In this document: one piece after another, positions 2,261 through 46,259 of the stretch | Position numbering within the stretch: the stretch's first letter is position 1 | How the letters are laid out: every line of letters starts with the position of its first letter | From: Olsenella sp. An293 | Lineage (GTDB): Bacteria; Actinomycetota; Coriobacteriia; Coriobacteriales; Atopobiaceae | Direction: 5' to 3' | Assembly: GCF_002159495.1 (NCBI RefSeq) | Contig: NZ_NFIT01000006.1 | Location: forward strand, 62,001-126,000 | Length of the DNA stretch: 64,000 nt | Made by a program: the position numbers and the translations under genes | The notes under the pieces: model-generated | The model's database searches: none | What the model was told of the DNA's origin: nothing | Seen by the model: only the letters and a program-made list of their open reading frames with translations

Positions 2261-3172
2261 CTAGGCCACCTCCCCCTTCTTGGCATCGTCGTCCGTCTTG
2301 GAGGCCACCTCCGCGAGGTAGGACTCGCAGCAGAGCTTGGCGATGGTGCGGACTCGCAGGATGTAGTTGGCGCGCTCGGTGGCCGAGATGGCGCCGCGGG
2401 CGTCGAGCAGGTTGAAGGCGTGGGAGCACTTCATCACGCAGTCGTAGGCGGGAAGCGGCAGGTGCGCGTCGAGGCAGGCGTGGCACTCGCGCTCGTAGTC
2501 GTCAAACTTCTGGCGCATCATCTCGACGTTGGCGACCTCGAAGTTGTAGGTCGAGAACTCGTACTCGTTCTCATGGAAGACGTCGCCGTAGGTCATCGGG
2601 GTGCCGTCGGGCAGGTAGGACCAGATGACGTCATAGACCGAGTCGACGCCCTGGGCGTACATGGCGATGCGCTCGAGGCCGTAGGTGATCTCGACGGGCA
2701 CCGGGTCGACCTCGATGCCGCCCACCTGCTGGAAGTAGGTGTACTGGGTGACCTCCATGCCGTCCATCCAGACCTCCCAGCCAAGCCCCCAGGCGCCCAG
2801 CGTGGGGCTCTCCCAGTCGTCCTCGACGAAGCGGACGTCATGCTCGGCCGGGTCGAGGCCGATGGCCGCGAGCGAGCCCAGGTAGAGCTCCTGGGAGTCG
2901 GCCGGGCACGGCTTGAGGATGACCTGGAACTGGTAGTAGTGCTGCATGCGGTTGGGGTTCTCTCCGTAGCGGCCGTCCGCGGGGCGGCGGCAGGGCTGCG
3001 GGTAGCAGGTGCGCCAGGCGCCGGGCCCGAGCGAGCGCAGCGTCGTGGCGGTGTGGAACGTGCCGGCGCCGACCTCGGAGTCATAGGGCTGCATGACGGT
3101 GCAGCCCTGGTCCGCCCAGTAGCGCTCGAGCGCGAGGATCATGTCCTGGAACGTAAGCGCGTCTTCCCTCAT
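2261..3172 (-). CDS. glyQ: Glycyl-tRNA synthetase, alpha subunit
   Basis: This 303-residue catalytic alpha chain forms glycyl-adenylate and works with GlyS. The start [19 protein letters not shown] is typical, followed by the motif [22 protein letters not shown] and the R-P[11 protein letters not shown] class II synthetase segment near residues 63-75. Length matches the family. The ATG at 3172 has an AAAGGA ribosome site. It sits 34 bases behind lepB and is followed immediately by glyS. The spacer upstream is too short for a T-box, so expression probably follows the rpsP operon promoter. Confidence 0.97.
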
Positions 3173-3206
3173 GTGTCCTTTGCCCTTCCTTCTTGCCTCG
3201 ACGGGG

Positions 3207-3776
3207 CTAGAGCGCCCCGACGTGGTCCAGCGGCCAGTAGATGAAAAGCGCCCTCGATGTTACGTCATCGAGGCTCACGGCGCCAAAGTAGCGCGAGTCC
3301 TTGGAGTCGGTGCGGTTGTCCCCCATCACCCAGACGCACCCCTCGGGGACCACGTAGGGGTAGGTGACGCCCGCGGAGCCCGGGAGGTCCGAGAGCGAGT
3401 AGGTGGGGCGGCCCTCGACGTAGGGCTCGTCGAGCGGCTCGCCGTCCACGTGGACGGCGCCGTCCACGAGCTCGATCGTCTGCCCGCCCACCGCGACGAC
3501 GCGCTTGATGAGCGTCTCGCCGTCGAGGGGGCTGTCGAAGGTGACGACGTCGCCGACCTCGGGATCGCCGAAGTAGAGGCTCACGCGCTCGCCGAGGAGC
3601 ACGTCCCCCTCCATGATGGTGTCCCGCATCGAGCCGGTGGGCACGACGTAGGGGGTGACGACGAAGGTCTTGACGACAAGCCCGACCGCCACGGCGGCGA
3701 CGAGCCACAGGGCGAACCAGCCCCAGCCGGAGCGCTCGCGCCTCTCGGTCGCGTCCGGCGCCTCATGCCTGGCCAT
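3207..3776 (-). CDS. lepB: Signal peptidase I
   Basis: This membrane serine/lysine peptidase removes signal peptides from secreted proteins. The 189-residue protein has a cytoplasmic N-terminus, one membrane segment at about 20-38, the catalytic serine in PTGSM (Ser49), the general base lysine in [10 protein letters not shown] (Lys91), and the box-E motif [11 protein letters not shown] near the C-terminus. It is a short Gram-positive-type enzyme. The start overlaps the trmD stop by 14 bases. The neighbourhood rpsP-rimM-trmD-lepB is a common arrangement that also carries rplS in many bacteria; rplS is absent here. Confidence 0.95.
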
Positions 3777-4548
3777 GGCAGGCCCCCTCTCCCTCTGCGT
3801 CCGCGCGGCGCGGGGACGGCCCCCTCGCCGCGATCTCGCGGGCGAACGCGCGCTCCTCGTCGCTCAGGTCCGCGCCCTCGATGAGGTCAGGGCGCCACAG
3901 CGCGGTCCGCTCGAGCGCGCTTCGCCTGCGCCAGGCGTCGACGCGCGCGTGGTCGCCCGAGAGCAGCACCTCGGGCACGTCCATGCCCCGGAAGCTCGCG
4001 GGCCTCGTGTACTGGGCGTACTCGAGCAGCCCGGCGGACGAGAAGGACTCGTCGACCGCGCTCATCTCGTCGCCGAGCGCTCCGGGCAGAAGGCGGCAGA
4101 CCGCGTCGATCACGACGAGCGCGGCGAGCTCCCCGCCCGTCAGGACGTAGTCGCCGAGGGAGAGGACCTCGTCGGCGAGCGCGTAGGCCCGCTCGTCCAT
4201 CCCCTCGTAGCGACCGCAGACGAGCAGCAGCCGCTCCATGCCGGAGAGGCGCTCGGCGAGGCGCTGGTCGAAGCGACGTCCGCAGGGCGAGAAGAACACG
4301 ACGTGTGGCCTCGGCCCGGAGCCGGCGATGTCCTCGACCGCCTCGAAGATGGGCTCGGGCTTCATGAGCATGCCCTGGCCGCCCCCGAACGGGGCGTCGT
4401 CGACCGTGCGGTGACGGTCGTGGGTCCAGTCGCGCAGGTCGTGGGCGCAAAAGTCGAACACGCCCGCGCGGCGCGCCCGCCCGAGGACCGAGACGCCCAG
4501 GTAGGGCTCGAAGACCTCGGGAAAGACGGAGAGCGTCTCACAGAGCAT
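3763..4548 (-). CDS. trmD: tRNA (guanine37-N1)-methyltransferase
   Basis: TrmD uses SAM to methylate G37 next to the anticodon, preventing +1 frameshifts. I place the start at the ATG of MLCETLSVF (4548), giving 261 residues; the longer open frame upstream is rimM read out of frame. The trefoil-knot signatures are visible: FGGGQGMLMKPEPIFEA, LLVCGRYEGMDERAY and the catalytic-aspartate segment SLGDYVLTGGELAA. It overlaps the rimM stop by 11 bases and the lepB start by 14, so the genes are tightly coupled. A short charged tail follows the usual C-terminal domain. Confidence 0.95.
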   Translation of the reverse strand: MLCETLSVFPEVFEPYLGVSVLGRARRAGVFDFCAHDLRDWTHDRHRTVDDAPFGGGQGMLMKPEPIFEAVEDIAGSGPRPHVVFFSPCGRRFDQRLAERLSGMERLLLVCGRYEGMDERAYALADEVLSLGDYVLTGGELAALVVIDAVCRLLPGALGDEMSAVDESFSSAGLLEYAQYTRPASFRGMDVPEVLLSGDHARVDAWRRRSALERTALWRPDLIEGADLSDEERAFAREIAARGPSPRRADAEGEGACHGQA

Positions 4549-5071
4549 CTTTGGCCCCCTTAGGCTCGAGGCCGGCGGGCACGCGGACCGTGACGGGCCC
4601 GCTCTCCCCCACCTCGCCCACGACGTCGTCGATGACGGGCAGAAGCGTCTCGCCCGCGGCGCCCCGCACGACCCAGACGTCGTTGGCGGGCCCGCGCATG
4701 ACCTCCTCGATCGAGCCGAGCGCCCCGAGGCGCTCGTCCACGACCTCGCGGCCGATGAGGGAGCGGGGGTCGTGGAGCTCGAGGTCCTCCGGAAGGTCCG
4801 ATCGGCGCGCGAGCAGGGTCTTTCCGACGAGCAGCTCCGCCTGGGAGATGTCGTCGACCCCCGAGAGCGCGACGAGCTGGCCGCCCCGGTCGTCGGACGT
4901 GCACGAGACGACGGTGCGCCAGCGCGGCCCGGTGAGCTCCGGGGGCAGGGGCGCCACCTCGAGGCCCTCGCGCACAAGAGAGGGAAGGCCGTGGACGGAA
5001 ACCGTCACGACCTCCCCTCGCCTCCCGTGGGCCTTCGCCACACGGGCTATGGTTCTGTAGCGCTCGCGCAT
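4538..5071 (-). CDS. rimM: 16S rRNA processing protein RimM
   Basis: RimM binds ribosomal protein S19 and assists maturation of the 30S head. The 177-residue protein starts with the family pattern RYRTIARVAKAHGRRGEVVT, has an N-terminal beta-barrel domain to about residue 95 and a PRC-barrel-like C-terminal half beginning near DPRSLIGREVVDERLG. It lies four bases behind the KH-domain gene and overlaps trmD, the classical rimM-trmD pair. Length and architecture are normal. Confidence 0.93.
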   Translation of the reverse strand: MRERYRTIARVAKAHGRRGEVVTVSVHGLPSLVREGLEVAPLPPELTGPRWRTVVSCTSDDRGGQLVALSGVDDISQAELLVGKTLLARRSDLPEDLELHDPRSLIGREVVDERLGALGSIEEVMRGPANDVWVVRGAAGETLLPVIDDVVGEVGESGPVTVRVPAGLEPKGAKDAL

Positions 5072-39345: not shown

Positions 39346-40497
39346 ATGGCCGAGCTCTCGGAGCTGAGGCAAGAGATTGACAGGATCGACCGCGAGATCT
39401 TCGCGCTCTTCTCCGAGCGGGCGAAGGTCTCCGAGGGGGTCGCGGCGTACAAGCGCGAGCATGGGATGCGCGTCTTCGACCCGGCGCGGGAGCGCGCGAA
39501 GGTCGCGGCGGCCGCCGAGGCGGCGCCGGAGGACCTCGCCACGTACGCGCAGGTCCTGATGGAGCTGCTCATGGAGGCCTCCCGCTCGCGCCAGCACGCG
39601 CTTCTCGGCGACGCGTCGGACGACGGGCTGCTTGCCGGCATTCGCCGCGCGCGCGAGGCCACGCCCGAGGTCTTCCCCCGCTCGGCGCACGTGAGCTGCC
39701 AGGGCGTCGAGGGCGCCTACTCGCAGATCGCGGCCGAGAAGATCTTCCGTCGGCCCACGATCGCCTACTCACCCACCTTCGACGGCGTGTTCCGCACCGT
39801 CGAGCAGGGGCTCGCCGACTACGGGGTGCTCCCGCTCGAGAACTCCACGGCGGGCTCGGTCAACCAGGTCTTCGACCTGATGATGGAGCACTCCTTCTAT
39901 GTCGTGCGCACCACGCGCGTGAAGGTCGACCACAGCCTGCTCGCCCTTCCCGGCGCCGAGCTCTCCGGCATTCGTGACATCTACAGCCACCAGCAGGCCA
40001 TCAGTCAGTGCGCCGAGTTCCTCTCCGGGCTGCCCGACGTGCGCGTGCACGTCTGCGAGAACACGGCCGCCGCGGCCCGCAGCGTCGCCGAGTCCGGGCG
40101 CACCGACGTCGCGGCGCTCGCCTCCCACGCCTGCGCCGCGCTCTACGGCCTCGCCGCGCTCTCCTCGGGCGTGCAGGACCGTGACAACAACTACACGCGC
40201 TTCGCCTGCATCTCCCGCAGCCTCGAGGTCTACCCCGGCGCCGACCGGGCCTCCTTCATGGCCGTGCTCCCGCACCAGCCCGGCTCCCTCTACAAGCTGC
40301 TCGCGAAGCTCTACGCGCTCGACGTCAACCTCCTCAAGCTCGAGAGCCGCCCGATCCCCGAGCGCGACTTCGAGTTCATGTTCTACTTCGACATCGAGTG
40401 CCCCGCGGCCTCGCCGGAGTTTGCCTCGCTCGTCACGACGCTCGGGAGCCTCTGCCAGGAGCTGCGCTACCTCGGCAGCTACTCGGAGGTGCTCTAG
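39346..40497 (+). CDS. pheA: Bifunctional chorismate mutase / prephenate dehydratase
   Basis: Converts chorismate to prephenate and on to phenylpyruvate. The 383-residue protein has an AroQ-type chorismate mutase (1-88, LRQEIDRIDREIFALFSERAKVSE), a prephenate dehydratase domain (about 105-285) with GVEGAYSQIAAEKIF, LPLENSTAGSVNQVFDL and the catalytic TRFACISR, and an ACT domain with the phenylalanine-binding ESRPIPERDFEFMF. Feedback by phenylalanine is therefore expected. An AAGGAGG site precedes the ATG. Its stop overlaps the GTG start of the aroE-aroK fusion. Confidence 0.95.
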   Translation: MAELSELRQEIDRIDREIFALFSERAKVSEGVAAYKREHGMRVFDPARERAKVAAAAEAAPEDLATYAQVLMELLMEASRSRQHALLGDASDDGLLAGIRRAREATPEVFPRSAHVSCQGVEGAYSQIAAEKIFRRPTIAYSPTFDGVFRTVEQGLADYGVLPLENSTAGSVNQVFDLMMEHSFYVVRTTRVKVDHSLLALPGAELSGIRDIYSHQQAISQCAEFLSGLPDVRVHVCENTAAAARSVAESGRTDVAALASHACAALYGLAALSSGVQDRDNNYTRFACISRSLEVYPGADRASFMAVLPHQPGSLYKLLAKLYALDVNLLKLESRPIPERDFEFMFYFDIECPAASPEFASLVTTLGSLCQELRYLGSYSEVL

Positions 40498-41789
40498 TGG
40501 CGGGCGAGAGGGGCGCGGCGGCGACCGCTCCCTACGGGCTCGTGGGGCACCCGCTCGGGCACAGCTGGTCGCCGAAGATTCACGAGCGTCTGGGATCTTT
40601 CCCCTACGCCCTGCACGACCTCGACCGGGACGAGGTCGAGCCGTTCGTCCGTGACGGCGCGTGGCGCGGCCTCAACGTCACCATCCCCTACAAGCGGCTC
40701 GCGGCCGAGCTCGCCGACGTGCGCTCGCCCGCCGTGGAGCGGCTCGGGGCCGCCAACACGCTCGTGAGGGACCGGGACGGCCGCATCGTCGCCGAGAACA
40801 CCGACGTGCTGGGGTTTGCCTGGATGCTCGCGCGCTTCTGCCGCGAGCGGCTGAGCGAGTCGCCGCGCGGTCTGCTCGAGGGTAGGAAGGCGCTCGTGCT
40901 TGGGAGCGGCGGCGCGGCCGCGGCGGTCCGCGACGCCCTGGAGCACGCGGCCGGGGCGCGCGTCGTCACCATCTCGCGCTCCGGCGACGAGACCTATGCG
41001 ACCCTCGCCGAGCGGCACGCCGACGCCGTTCTTCTCGTCAACACCACGCCGGTGGGCATGTTCCCGCGCTGCCCGGACTCCCCCGTCGACGAGGGCACGC
41101 TTTCTCGGCTCACGGGGCTGCGCGGCGTGCTCGACGTCGTCTACAACCCCACGCGCACGGGGCTGTGCCTTTCCGCCGAGCGCCTGGGGCTGCCCACCGA
41201 GAGCGGCCTTGCCATGCTCGTGGCGCAGGCGCTCTTTGCGAGCGGGCTCTTCCAGGGGCGCGACCTCGACGACGCCCTCGTGGGCACAATCGAGCGCGAG
41301 ATTTACTTTCAGACGGAAAACGTCGTGCTCATCGGCATGCCCGGCGCCGGCAAGACCACCTGCGGGCGGGCGCTCGCGCGCGTGCTCGGCCGGCCCTTCG
41401 TCGACCTCGACGAGGCGATCGCGCTCGAGACCGGCCGCGGCGCGGCGCAGATCATCCGCGAGGACGGGGAGGACGCCTTCCGCGCGGTCGAGACGCGCGT
41501 CACCGCCGACTACGCCGCGCGCTCGGGACTCGTCATCGCCTGCGGCGGCGGCGTGGTCACGAGGCCGGAGAACCGCGACCTGCTGCGCCAGAACGGCCGC
41601 GTCGTCTTTCTCGATCGCCCCGTCTCCGAGCTCAGCTCTGCGGGTCGCCCGGTCTCCCAGGCCAAGGGCGTCGAGCGGATCGCCGCGGAGCGCATGGGGC
41701 TCTACCGCGCCTGGGCGGACGTGACGCTGCCCTGCACCGGCTCCGCCGCAGGGGACGCGGAGCTCGCGCGCGAGCTCCTCGGGCTCTAG
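40497..41789 (+). CDS. aroE-aroK: Fused shikimate dehydrogenase - shikimate kinase
   Basis: A 430-residue fusion of two consecutive pathway enzymes, starting at GTG inside TAGTG after pheA. Residues 1-268 are AroE: YGLVGHPLGHSWSPKIHE, GLNVTIPYKRLAAEL with the catalytic lysine, ENTDVLGF, and the NADP-binding VLGSGGAAAAVRDAL. Residues about 272-430 are shikimate kinase: VVLIGMPGAGKTTCGRALA (P-loop), FVDLDEAIALETG, VIACGGGVVTRPEN (shikimate-binding glycines) and a lid arginine region SSAGRPVS. Both halves look intact. There is no linker to speak of between them. Usually these are separate genes. Confidence 0.93.
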   Translation: MAGERGAAATAPYGLVGHPLGHSWSPKIHERLGSFPYALHDLDRDEVEPFVRDGAWRGLNVTIPYKRLAAELADVRSPAVERLGAANTLVRDRDGRIVAENTDVLGFAWMLARFCRERLSESPRGLLEGRKALVLGSGGAAAAVRDALEHAAGARVVTISRSGDETYATLAERHADAVLLVNTTPVGMFPRCPDSPVDEGTLSRLTGLRGVLDVVYNPTRTGLCLSAERLGLPTESGLAMLVAQALFASGLFQGRDLDDALVGTIEREIYFQTENVVLIGMPGAGKTTCGRALARVLGRPFVDLDEAIALETGRGAAQIIREDGEDAFRAVETRVTADYAARSGLVIACGGGVVTRPENRDLLRQNGRVVFLDRPVSELSSAGRPVSQAKGVERIAAERMGLYRAWADVTLPCTGSAAGDAELARELLGL

Positions 41790-41964: not shown

Positions 41965-42050
41965 GTGCTTTCGATTACACGGCAGTCGGCAGATGATGAG
42001 TGTGGAGACGGGGCTCCAGCTCGCGATTCGACGACGGGAAGGGTCGCGAA

Positions 42051-43010
42051 GTGGACAGAGATCAGATCGCGCAGGAGGTTCTCGCCGCAGTGGGCGGCAA
42101 GGGCAACGTCACCGCGAACGACATCTGCATGACCCGCCTGAGGATTCTCACCGAGGACCCCTCGCTCGTCGACACCGACCAGCTCTCCTCCGCCCGCGGC
42201 GTGCTCGGCTTCGTGAAGCGCGGCGCCAACGGCATCGAGGTCGTCTTTGGCCCCGGCAAGGTCGAGGCCGTGCACGAGGCGCTGGTTCGCCTCACGGGCA
42301 TCGAGGGCAACGAGGAGGCCTTCGACGAGGCCTCGGCCATGCCCTCCCCCATTCACGTGCACATCTCCCGCAACCCGCTTCGCAGCGCCGCACTCGCGCA
42401 GAGCGAGGGCGACGTCGACGCCGCGCCCGAGGGACCCTCCGAGGAGGATGCCGAGGACGCGTCGGTCGAGGACCTCGTGAGCCTGCTCGACGTCATGGAG
42501 CCCGCGGACGCTTCGCCCGACGAGACGACGGACGTCGACGTCGACGTCGAGGACCAGCTCCCGGAGAGCCCCGTGCGCGCGCTCGTCATCAACGGGCCCA
42601 ACATCAACATGCTGGGCATCCGCGAGCCCGACATCTACGGGCACGACTCGTACCGCGCGATGCTGCGCATCTGCCACGACGCCGCGCTCGAGGCCGGCTT
42701 TGCTGACTGCACCTGCTTCCAGTCCAACCACGAGGGCGACCTCATCGACGCCATCCAGGACGCGTACGGCACCTATGCCGGCATCATCATCAACCCCGGC
42801 GCCTACACGCACACCTCTATCGCAATCCTCGACGCCGCCAAGGCCGTGGGCCTGCCCATGATCGAGGTGCACATCTCCAAGCTCGAGGATCGCGAGGACT
42901 TCCGCCAGGTGTCCTACATCCGCGCCGCCTGCTTCGAGACCATCACGGGCCTGGGCGTCGAGGGCTATCGCAAGGCGCTGTTCGACATGGCCGCGCACCT
43001 GGGCCTGTAG
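42051..43010 (+). CDS. aroQ: PTS EIIB-like domain fused to type II 3-dehydroquinate dehydratase
   Basis: The C-terminal part (about 175-319) is a type II dehydroquinase: VINGPNINMLGIREPDIYG (catalytic Arg and Tyr), FQSNHEGDLIDAI, IINPGAYTHTSIAI and MIEVHISKLEDREDF. It dehydrates 3-dehydroquinate. Residues 1-85 instead resemble a glucose-type PTS EIIB domain: EVLAAVGGKGNVTANDIC-MTRLRI with the phospho-accepting cysteine (Cys26) and the TRLR motif, then GVLGFVKRGANGIEVVFGPG. An acidic 90-residue linker joins them. I chose GTG 42051 (GGAAGGG upstream); an in-frame GTG at 42000 would add 17 residues. No EIIC or EIIA is nearby. Confidence 0.88.
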   Translation: MDRDQIAQEVLAAVGGKGNVTANDICMTRLRILTEDPSLVDTDQLSSARGVLGFVKRGANGIEVVFGPGKVEAVHEALVRLTGIEGNEEAFDEASAMPSPIHVHISRNPLRSAALAQSEGDVDAAPEGPSEEDAEDASVEDLVSLLDVMEPADASPDETTDVDVDVEDQLPESPVRALVINGPNINMLGIREPDIYGHDSYRAMLRICHDAALEAGFADCTCFQSNHEGDLIDAIQDAYGTYAGIIINPGAYTHTSIAILDAAKAVGLPMIEVHISKLEDREDFRQVSYIRAACFETITGLGVEGYRKALFDMAAHLGL

Positions 43011-43288: not shown

Positions 43289-43693
43289 TCATGCGCCGCG
43301 GCGCCGCGCCCTGAGCGCCCTCACGCCCGCACCGAACCCAAAGCCCACGGCCGAGACGGCACCGCCAAAGGCGAGCGCCGTCAGGTCGGGCGGGTGGACG
43401 TTGCCAAACGTCAGCGTGTTGGCCAAAAGAAACGTCAGGCTCGGGAGCAGCATGGACAGGACGGCCGCCACCGGGATGATGAGCCAGCTCCTCGTTCCGT
43501 AGGGCCTGAGAAGGCCCGCCGTGAGCGAGGTTCCCAGGACCGTCGCGGGCATGAGCCCGTAGAAGAAGATCAGCGCATAGCCCAGGGCGTCCGAGGGACC
43601 GATAACGCACCAGAAGACGAGAAGCGACAGGAGCCAGACGGCGAGAAGAACGGCGGGCACGGCGATCTTTGCGGTGCTTGCGGCGCGCTTCAT
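43289..43693 (-). CDS. Small four-helix membrane protein, unknown
   Basis: A 134-residue protein with four predicted membrane helices at roughly 9-30, 36-58, 66-88 and 98-120, and a very basic C-terminus (RALRARRRGA). The start at 43693 is chosen for the GGAGG site six bases upstream; an in-frame start ten codons earlier lacks one. I do not recognise the family. It lies 82 bases behind the LuxR-type gene on the same strand and may be co-transcribed with it, but no role can be assigned. Confidence 0.6.
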   Translation of the reverse strand: MKRAASTAKIAVPAVLLAVWLLSLLVFWCVIGPSDALGYALIFFYGLMPATVLGTSLTAGLLRPYGTRSWLIIPVAAVLSMLLPSLTFLLANTLTFGNVHPPDLTALAFGGAVSAVGFGFGAGVRALRARRRGA

Positions 43694-43775
43694 GGCAGCC
43701 TCCTTCCGAAGGGGTTGCCACAATGGTACCCAGTGCGGCGCGGGGCGTCTGTCAACCCCGGGGATGCGCGTCGGC

Positions 43776-45515
43776 TCAGCCTGTCAACCCGGCCCGACCC
43801 TCGAGGTATTCTCGCAGCTCGACGGCATTGTGGATGCCGAGCGCCCGATAGCAGCGCGTCCGCGCGGACTTGACCGTCCCTGGGGCCACGTGCAGGCGCT
43901 CGCAGATGGCACGCTCGCCCTCGCCGAGCGAGAGGAGCAGCGCGACGTTGGCCTGAAGCTCGCTCAGGCCGGCCCTTCTCAGGATGGCGACCTGCTCCTC
44001 GCGGTCATCGCGGGCGGCGGGGCGGAAGGCCACGCCAAAGACGAGCGCGCCGAGCGCCGCCACGAGGCACCACAGGCCCTCGACCACGCCGGGAAAAACC
44101 TCGAGAGGCGCGGTCAGGCAGGAGCCGAGCAGCAGGGAGAGCCCCGCGAGGGCCGTGACCTCACGTCCGCGGCACGCAAGCTCTCGCAGGCCGGAGACGG
44201 TCGAGCGCCGAAGCCACGTGCGGACGTCGATGCCCGGGTCCGCGCTGACCGGCCGCGCCCCGAGATACAGGACGCCGAGCGCAAGGACCAGCGCGGCGAG
44301 CGAGCGGCGCCCGGGGACGAGGGGCCATGAGGAGACGAAGAGCGGGGGCACGGCGACGGAGCAGAGCAGGCAGACGACGCCGCGCTCCCAGGAGGGGCGC
44401 ACGCCCGTCCGTTCCCGGAGCGCGCGACGGCCCCCGGTGTCGGGCGCAAGGACGAGAAAGGCGACGAGGGCGACGCACGAGAGCACGTCGCCCGCGAGGC
44501 AGGCCACGACGGGGCGGACCGGCCCCGCCCAGGGCGCGAGCAGCAGGGCGAGCAGCGCGGCGCCGAGAAGGGCGCGCGCCCACGATGGGACGCGACGGTG
44601 CCCGGAGCCGTCGGGGCGCAGACTGCCGGCGTCGCTCGTCCAGGAGCTCACGCGCGAGACGAGCTCGACCTTGGAGGACACGCCGAGCTTCTCGTAGCCG
44701 CGCGTGCGGTTGGTGCCGACGGTCGACTCCGAGACGTCGAGCGCCTGCGCGATGACGCGGCGCGGCTCTCCGCAGAGCGTCCGGACGAGGACCTCGCGCT
44801 CGCGGTCGCTGAGCTCGCGCTCCGCGAGGTCGTCGAGGGCGCGGCGCATCGTCGCCGCATAGTCCCCCTCGCCGCCGTCTGAGGCGAGCGAGGCGAGCAG
44901 CGGCACGCCGCAGGCGCTTAAGGCCACGAGCGAGGCCGTCGCAAGAACCACGAGCCCGGACTCGCCCGCCGCCATCGAGCAGCTAAGCAGCGCCGCGGGC
45001 GCGAGGGCGGCGAAGAGCTCGGGCTCCGAGAGCGAGCGTCCCGCGCGCGCCCTGGTGAGGACGGCAAGGGCAAAGAGCGCGCCGAGAAAGACGGCGGAGG
45101 CTACCCGGGGCACGGGAAGCAGCCATGCGGCGGCGAGCAGGGCGAGGACGGCGACGAGCTCGCCCGCCAGGGCGCCGGAGCGCGCGGCGCGTCGCTCGTC
45201 CTTCTCGCCAAGCGAGAGGCACACCCATCCGGCGAGCGCGAGCGCCCCGGGGATCGCGATGAGCCCGGGGGCGATCGCCCAAACGAGGGCGAGCGCGGGC
45301 GTGACCAGGAGGCCGACCACGGCTACGACCCTTCGGCACCGCTCCGCCGAGACGCGGTCCGCGGCGCCGAGGATCCTGCCGGCCATGAGGGCGGAGCCGG
45401 CGAGGAGGTAGGCGACGGGCGAGAGCCCGAGCGCGACGAGCCCCGCGAGCACGCCCGTCCAGAGCGGCCAGGCGACCGTTCGGCGGCGCTCGATAAGGGC
45501 GTAGGCGCGCAGCAT
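43776..45515 (-). CDS. Membrane protein with two LuxR-type HTH domains
   Basis: This 579-residue protein is built as two similar halves, each a block of hydrophobic helices followed by a LuxR-type helix-turn-helix. The first HTH is at about 233-290 (LSDREREVLVRTLCGEPRRVI ... VSESTVGTNRTRGYEKLGV), the second at 515-575 (ALLLSLGEGERAICERLHVAPGTVKSARTRCYRALGIHN). Both keep the family's recognition-helix pattern STVGTNRTR / GTVKSARTR. Single-HTH membrane LuxR proteins are common in Coriobacteriia; a double one is unusual. The ATG at 45515 is four bases behind the ygfA stop, suggesting coupling. Signal and targets are unknown. Confidence 0.8.
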   Translation of the reverse strand: MLRAYALIERRRTVAWPLWTGVLAGLVALGLSPVAYLLAGSALMAGRILGAADRVSAERCRRVVAVVGLLVTPALALVWAIAPGLIAIPGALALAGWVCLSLGEKDERRAARSGALAGELVAVLALLAAAWLLPVPRVASAVFLGALFALAVLTRARAGRSLSEPELFAALAPAALLSCSMAAGESGLVVLATASLVALSACGVPLLASLASDGGEGDYAATMRRALDDLAERELSDREREVLVRTLCGEPRRVIAQALDVSESTVGTNRTRGYEKLGVSSKVELVSRVSSWTSDAGSLRPDGSGHRRVPSWARALLGAALLALLLAPWAGPVRPVVACLAGDVLSCVALVAFLVLAPDTGGRRALRERTGVRPSWERGVVCLLCSVAVPPLFVSSWPLVPGRRSLAALVLALGVLYLGARPVSADPGIDVRTWLRRSTVSGLRELACRGREVTALAGLSLLLGSCLTAPLEVFPGVVEGLWCLVAALGALVFGVAFRPAARDDREEQVAILRRAGLSELQANVALLLSLGEGERAICERLHVAPGTVKSARTRCYRALGIHNAVELREYLEGRAGLTG

Positions 45516-45519
45516 GGCG

Positions 45520-46122
45520 TCAGAGGTTCTGGCTGCAGCCCCAGACGGTCCCCTCACTCACGAGGAAGTCGACCGGGACGTCGTGCCCCCCCACCGGGAG
45601 CGGGTTGGACGAAAGCTGCGTCACGCGGGCGAGGCCGATCTTGTTGCCGGGGTAGAACGCGAGGAAGCGGTCGTAGTAGCCGCCGCCGTAGCCCACGCGG
45701 TGCCCCGCGCCGTCAAAGACGAGGCCGGGCACGAGGCAGGCGGTGCGCACCATCTCGGGCACCGTGAGGGCCGGCGTGTCGCCGGGGGGCTCGAGGATGC
45801 CCATCGTTCCGGGGACGAGCCCCTCGAGCGACTCGATCTCGTGGAAGGCCATCTTGTGCGCCGCGCGGTCGACGCGCGGGACGGCGACGCGGCGGCCCTC
45901 GTCGAGCAGCTCCTCGATCAGGGCGCGTGTGTCGACCTCGGCGCCAAAGGAGACGTAGGTGAGCACGATGGGCGCGCGCCGGAAGACGTCGAAGGAGCGC
46001 AGCGCGCGGCGAATGGCCTCGTCCGAGGAGATTCGCAGGCGCGCGGGGACGGTGCGGCGAACGCGCAGGTAGTTGCTCCTGAGTGAGCTCTTGTCGGCGT
46101 CCGTGCCGTATGAGCTTGCCAC
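45520..46122 (-). CDS. 5-formyltetrahydrofolate cyclo-ligase family protein
   Basis: ATP-dependent conversion of 5-formyl-THF to 5,10-methenyl-THF. I choose the GTG at 46122, which has a strong GAGGAGGAG site, giving 200 residues; the longer frame lacks one. Family motifs: SSLRSNYLRVRRTV at the N-terminus, LTYVSFGAEVDTRALIEELL, VAVPRVDR, and the ATP-binding GHRVGYGGGYYDRFLAF. The final DFLVSEGTVW is conserved. It directly precedes the double-LuxR gene and has a likely extended -10 element just upstream. Confidence 0.92.
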   Translation of the reverse strand: MASSYGTDADKSSLRSNYLRVRRTVPARLRISSDEAIRRALRSFDVFRRAPIVLTYVSFGAEVDTRALIEELLDEGRRVAVPRVDRAAHKMAFHEIESLEGLVPGTMGILEPPGDTPALTVPEMVRTACLVPGLVFDGAGHRVGYGGGYYDRFLAFYPGNKIGLARVTQLSSNPLPVGGHDVPVDFLVSEGTVWGCSQNL

Positions 46123-46153
46123 CGCTCCTCCTCTTCTCGACCTCGACCAGATT

Positions 46154-46162
46154 ATTCTAACA
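46154..46162 (-). promoter_or_regulatory. Extended -10 element of the folate cyclo-ligase gene
   Basis: On the minus strand TGTTAGAAT is a TG-N-extended -10 hexamer (TAGAAT). The start site would be about 25 bases before the GTG at 46122. No -35 consensus is visible. Confidence 0.5.
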
Positions 46163-46259
46163 GGCTTTTGCGAGGACCCCGCGCACGAGGCCGCCGTTTG
46201 CCGTACCATAGGATGCCGTTGACCACATACGCGGGGGACCGCAAACGCGAGGAGGAACC

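Follow-up and report, generated by a model that had tools for sequence, protein, structure and literature searches.

The nearest described kind of regulator to the protein analysed here is represented by DadR, HcdR and CadR of Eggerthella lenta, which are LuxR activators with 10-12 transmembrane (TM) helices that switch on enzyme genes when the substrate of the enzyme is present (Dong et al. 2022, PMC9734109). In the DadR type, one C-terminal helix-turn-helix (HTH) domain follows an unbroken membrane domain of 10-12 TM helices, the genes mostly lie near the enzyme genes that they control, and DadR shows hints of autoregulation (PMC9734109). A survey of transmembrane transcription regulators described the Coriobacteriia as rich in such regulators and in multi-pass forms, and its main text makes no mention of LuxR/GerE or of "two DNA-binding" (PMC10269533). 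The protein of interest is encoded in a window of 64,000 nucleotides from Olsenella sp. An293, by which we mean the whole stretch of DNA that was analysed. It resembles the DadR type in coming from the Coriobacteriia and in joining a multi-pass membrane domain and a LuxR/GerE HTH in one chain that has no receiver domain. Unlike the DadR type, it has a membrane domain that is split by a first HTH (HTH1), the order along the chain being about eight predicted TM helices, HTH1, six TM helices and a second HTH (HTH2), and no enzyme target is evident beside its gene. Since it departs from the layout that defines the DadR type, we do not place it among the DadR-type members; by analogy with them it may well work similarly. 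The Eggerthellaceae matches that we examined were single-HTH proteins with 10-12 TM helices, and inspection by eye of two Eggerthellaceae genomes revealed, among the matches listed, no two GerE matches in one frame. Both HTHs of the window protein share the four-helix fold of the LuxR domains of NarL, RcsB and FixJ, from which the protein differs in having membrane domains in place of the receiver and two HTHs per chain. ToxR and CadC are also membrane-located one-component regulators, but unlike the window protein they are single-pass and carry one winged HTH.

The frame of the regulator gene is uninterrupted from its ATG at 45515 to its stop at 43776 on the minus strand and encodes 579 residues (Table 1). 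The ATG lies 4 nt past the stop of the cyclo-ligase gene, which is a conserved neighbour, and an in-frame GTG at 45557 overlaps that gene. The neighbours are this gene (fthC), a divergent trpS and the gene of a small membrane protein, which is inverted in some relatives and for whose product no Pfam family was found. This neighbourhood is kept in orthologous loci while the regulator sequence diverges fast, and the context names no target gene. A counterpart in another species, 79% identical, has this architecture intact, as do those of further congeners with 57, 45, 44 and 41% identity over the aligned part; none contains an internal stop. Its recurrence in several species rules out both an artefact of assembly and an overlooked stop between two genes, and the two-HTH membrane architecture is confirmed as real in the window protein. 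The frameshift or lost stop between two ancestral genes that the earlier note had wanted checked is thus not seen in the open frame or in the relatives, nor did we find any relative in which the two halves are separate genes; the nearest case, in genome G016, is a decayed remnant.

Other observations were made in the same genome. In the window, a class II dehydroquinase (AroQ) with an N-terminal PTS EIIB-like fusion is encoded at 42000-43010 (+; Pfam PTS_EIIB, 41.6 bits), an unusual combination that sits in a shikimate gene cluster, and shikimate dehydrogenase and shikimate kinase are fused in a single frame at 40398-41789 (+). Two further loci (L004 and L006) each encode an apparently soluble protein with an excisionase-like HTH at the N-terminus and a GerE HTH at the C-terminus, adjoining a large predicted surface protein.

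Table 1. Features of the regulator gene, its protein and the adjoining genes (coordinates in the window)
Feature	Coordinates	Strand	Basis
Double-HTH membrane LuxR-type regulator P0001, 579 aa	43776..45515	-	Open frame and translation, two GerE domains, intact orthologs without stops
N-terminal membrane domain, residues 14-206, ~8 predicted TM, 4 hairpins	44898..45476	-	Hydropathy, AlphaFold2 helices, alignment
HTH1, residues 228-292, LuxR/GerE, "TxRxRGYEKLG" subtype	44640..44834	-	GerE 48.1 bits; RcsB fold match
Central membrane domain, residues 311-496, 6 predicted TM, 3 hairpins	44028..44585	-	Hydropathy, AlphaFold2 helices
HTH2, residues 509-573, LuxR/GerE, "ERLHVAPGTVK..R...YRALG(V/I)H" subtype	43797..43991	-	GerE 24.9 bits; NarL fold match
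5-Formyltetrahydrofolate cyclo-ligase, gene upstream of the regulator	45520..46209	-	Pfam 5-FTHF_cyc-lig; synteny in orthologous loci
Small membrane protein downstream of the regulator	43289..43723	-	Conserved neighbour, synteny

The Pfam GerE family (PF00196) matches the protein twice, with an overall score of 64.1 bits (cut-off 23.5), and when scored per domain each HTH exceeds that cut-off (Table 1), which bears out the earlier reading of two LuxR HTHs on one membrane-anchored chain. The LuxR-type four-helix DNA-binding fold is present in both; the best fold match of HTH1 is RcsB (Z 10.0, rmsd 1.3 over 63 residues) and that of HTH2 is NarL in its DNA-complex entry 1je8 (Z 9.6, rmsd 2.5 over 64 residues). 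Hydropathy places seven strong helices ahead of HTH1 and another six in the stretch from there to HTH2, and the first strong helix (residues 14-50) is two helices in the AlphaFold2 model, the models being of moderate confidence (mean pLDDT ~73). No match to the fold of the membrane domain was returned by Foldseek at E <= 0.001, and the VIA-align matches listed cover HTH1 and HTH2 only, not the membrane domain. A Pfam search up to E = 1 revealed neither the N-terminal receiver (REC) domain of two-component response regulators of the NarL family nor the N-terminal autoinducer-binding domain of quorum-sensing LuxR proteins, and membrane helices occupy the place of the latter. Lysine and arginine account for 24 of the 94 residues in the inner loops, with the HTHs left out of the count, versus 0 of 46 in the outer loops. 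Relatives L012-L014 lack residues ~104-163, which amount to two helices, an even number, and the side of HTH1 is unchanged by the loss. The charge bias, the even-numbered helix loss and the arrangement of the helices in hairpins together lead to the prediction that HTH1 and HTH2 are both cytoplasmic, so that neither falls outside the cell, an outcome that the earlier note had named as fatal to its reading.

Both HTHs are under purifying selection. In the comparison with the closest ortholog (L010), HTH1 is 94% and HTH2 92% identical versus 75% for each of the two membrane parts, and dN/dS is 0.16 for HTH1 and 0.10 for HTH2 versus 0.35 and 0.31 for the membrane parts. The gap between HTHs and membrane parts narrows in more distant comparisons, with every dN/dS still below 1. 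Over 71 distinct family proteins, the recognition helix of HTH1 conserves R193 (97%) and K197 (97%) and that of HTH2 conserves R191 (94%) and Y195 (94%), all in NarL numbering. The residues for DNA binding are thus kept in both domains, as had been claimed, and both HTHs look functional. The suggestion that one of them may be a dimerisation relic fares poorly, as both are kept in every intact relative with dN/dS well below 1.

We searched the genus (31 genomes), the order (247), the class (59) and a named genome collection for related proteins. Strong HTH2-type domains were found in the Atopobiaceae and the Coriobacteriaceae, including Collinsella, with family labels that are in part inferred, and outside the order no genome matched at E <= 1e-18. 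Every intact HTH2-type protein examined in these two families has an HTH1-type domain upstream, the only exceptions being truncated or decayed short frames (L015/L046 and L027). One of these is the decayed type A ortholog of G016 (L046:2402-3691, L015), in which a large internal deletion and a frameshift have left the first ~20 residues running into the C-terminal part and HTH2 alone whole. Four layouts carry the pair. Type A, that of the window protein, has ~6-8 TM helices, HTH1, ~6 TM helices and HTH2; type B is compact (440-510 aa), has its HTHs about 148 residues apart and is present in most of the genus; type C is large (820-925 aa) with 9-11 TM helices between the HTHs; and in type D an HTH1-HTH2 tandem is followed by a membrane helix and often by PASTA domains at the end. 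The linker between the HTHs is 7-16 aa in type D versus 142-447 aa (about 450 at most) in the other layouts, and the type D pair is either N-terminal or just before the last one or two membrane helices. PASTA domains are extracellular in known proteins. In five type D proteins (L028, L150, L152, L154 and L157) one to three C-terminal PASTA domains follow the membrane helix, which agrees with a cytoplasmic HTH pair; it is possible that these tandem proteins are direct cell-wall-to-transcription regulators. In about 10 loci (e.g., L049:6211-7548) the type B regulator is followed downstream by a gene of the acyltransferase-3 family. Our search of open-licence papers found no LuxR regulator with two HTH domains and no description of a double-HTH family, which is apparently undescribed and lies in one bacterial order.

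The earlier note took the protein for an internal duplication of hydrophobic helices plus HTH. The repeated layout and the HTHs, which are identical at 20 of 51 aligned residues, fit that description, but the membrane halves do not: no homology between them was detected (hhalign probability 0.2%; pairwise score 49 versus a shuffled mean of 52). A tree of 91 HTHs, built on 66 columns and with weak inner forks, has one branch (support 100/99) with all 39 HTH2 rows on one side and all 37 HTH1 rows on the other. HTH1 and HTH2 are therefore, as judged from this tree, old and distinct subtypes whose pairing is older than the layouts that now carry the pair. A recent internal duplication of the whole TM+HTH unit is ruled out, because the membrane halves lack homology and the two HTHs form separate groups in all layouts. 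The window protein, which is itself among the rows from which the models were built, scores 91.7 bits for HTH1 with the h1 model and 96.1 bits for HTH2 with the h2 model, whereas cross-model scores within the double-HTH family are 27-54 bits; it has both HTHs, each far better described by the model of its own subtype, and so belongs to that family.

Type B genes come after the rplT terminator, and a conserved element lies between the two (L048-L065 and relatives). In its best form it consists of a dyad, TGTCGCGG-N15-CCGCGACA, around GCATA, followed by a -10-like TACGAT. We scanned upstream of genes for the pattern [GT]CATA-N33..35-TANNNT and derived expectations from shuffling. The element is upstream of 21 of 24 type B genes (0.18 expected) and 7 of 10 type D genes (0.04 expected), or 28 of the 34 genes of both types with 0.2 expected, these expectations being ones that ignore kinship among the sequences. 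It was found upstream of 0 of 27 type A-like genes, the pattern has no match in the window, and it was found upstream of 0 of 10 type C genes, six of which come without upstream sequence. Each of seven whole genomes contains 2-4 matches to the N34 form, in every case fewer than to the reversed-pattern control (4-10), and in five of them one match is the site upstream of a double-HTH gene. The type D sites have different arm sequences at a similar spacing, e.g., GTGGCAAA-N15-TTTGCCAC in L028, and vary considerably from one to another. The mean score for the match between the dyad arms within a gene is 5.5 for type B and 5.0 for type D, against shuffled means of 3.0 and 3.1 and shuffled maxima of 3.5 and 4.1; matches of arms across types are lower than those within genes (3.9 and 3.3). 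If TANNNT is the -10 element, KCATA would span roughly -51 to -47, with the right arm abutting the -35 region, an activator-like position. Because the element is near-exclusive to double-HTH genes, we infer that the paired regulator itself is a candidate for binding it, which suggests autoregulation of the type B and type D genes by the HTH pair. In one species a ~1.5 kb insertion, possibly transposase-bearing, lies between the putative type B operator and the gene (L051, about 2900-4590).

The usual LuxR-type regulator has a single HTH in each chain and binds DNA as a dimer. Our favoured model, which we consider probable, is that the window protein is a membrane one-component regulator whose HTH1 and HTH2 act as an obligate pair on a composite site beside the promoter. 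The divergent membrane domains would hold the chain in the membrane and probably act as the sensor of a signal, and the two cytoplasmic HTHs, side by side, would read a composite DNA site next to the promoter and recruit RNA polymerase. They would do so as a pseudo-dimer within one chain or, if the protein dimerises, as two pairs. In types B and D the proteins would bind the element upstream of their own genes and activate from it. The HTHs are 7-16 residues apart in type D and ~148 in type B, yet the geometry of the element is the same, which argues for an adjacent pair on one composite site and makes plausible the idea, raised in the earlier note, of a single chain binding two half-sites. 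For type A, the model of DNA reading would follow from the homology of both HTHs.

An alternative explanation accepts the HTH pair but assigns the dyad to another regulator that controls the double-HTH genes, in which case autoregulation would be wrong. We consider this rather unlikely, although the element is defined by sequence alone and the genes of types A and C lack it. Against it, the element is nearly private to these genes, given the few genome matches relative to the control, and its arms differ between types B and D, a pattern that would follow from each protein recognising a site of its own. It is also unlikely that only one HTH reads DNA, the second having degenerated and been retained for dimerisation or as a spacer. 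LuxR HTHs are known to dimerise via their last helix, the C-terminal helix is more conserved in HTH2 than in HTH1, and HTH2 has the weaker GerE score (24.9 vs 48.1 bits), all of which would suit such a role; however, both recognition helices retain conserved basic or aromatic positions, purifying selection acts on both domains and is often stronger on HTH2, and neither HTH has been lost in any intact relative.

The ~350-450 residues and 9-11 helices that separate the HTHs in type C could be explained if each HTH bound a separate site, so that DNA was bridged or looped at the membrane, and the two shared no composite site. We regard this as quite improbable, since the tandem HTHs are only 7-16 residues apart and the equal spacing of the elements at tandem and compact genes favours one compact site. 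That the gene results from an assembly artefact, a missed frameshift or a recent in-frame fusion of two regulator genes is a negligible prospect, with nothing in its favour except the layout itself; the frames are intact in several species and collections, and the HTH1 and HTH2 subtypes are older than the split of the layouts.

Beyond the window protein, the favoured model of a pair on a composite site can be extended to the family as a whole, a step about which we are evenly divided. The two different LuxR HTHs would form an obligate pair in cis, a heterodimer built into one chain that binds a composite operator, and the sensor would be exchanged freely among 6+6 or 8+6 TM helices, a compact TM domain, a transporter-sized TM domain and a single-pass form with PASTA domains. 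The class would be an undescribed one, confined on present sampling to the Atopobiaceae and Coriobacteriaceae. If this is true, it shows how one polypeptide can incorporate a dimeric reader and yet work with sensors of very different kinds. The element upstream of two of the layouts offers a concrete DNA target, which makes the mechanism directly testable in these poorly understood gut bacteria.
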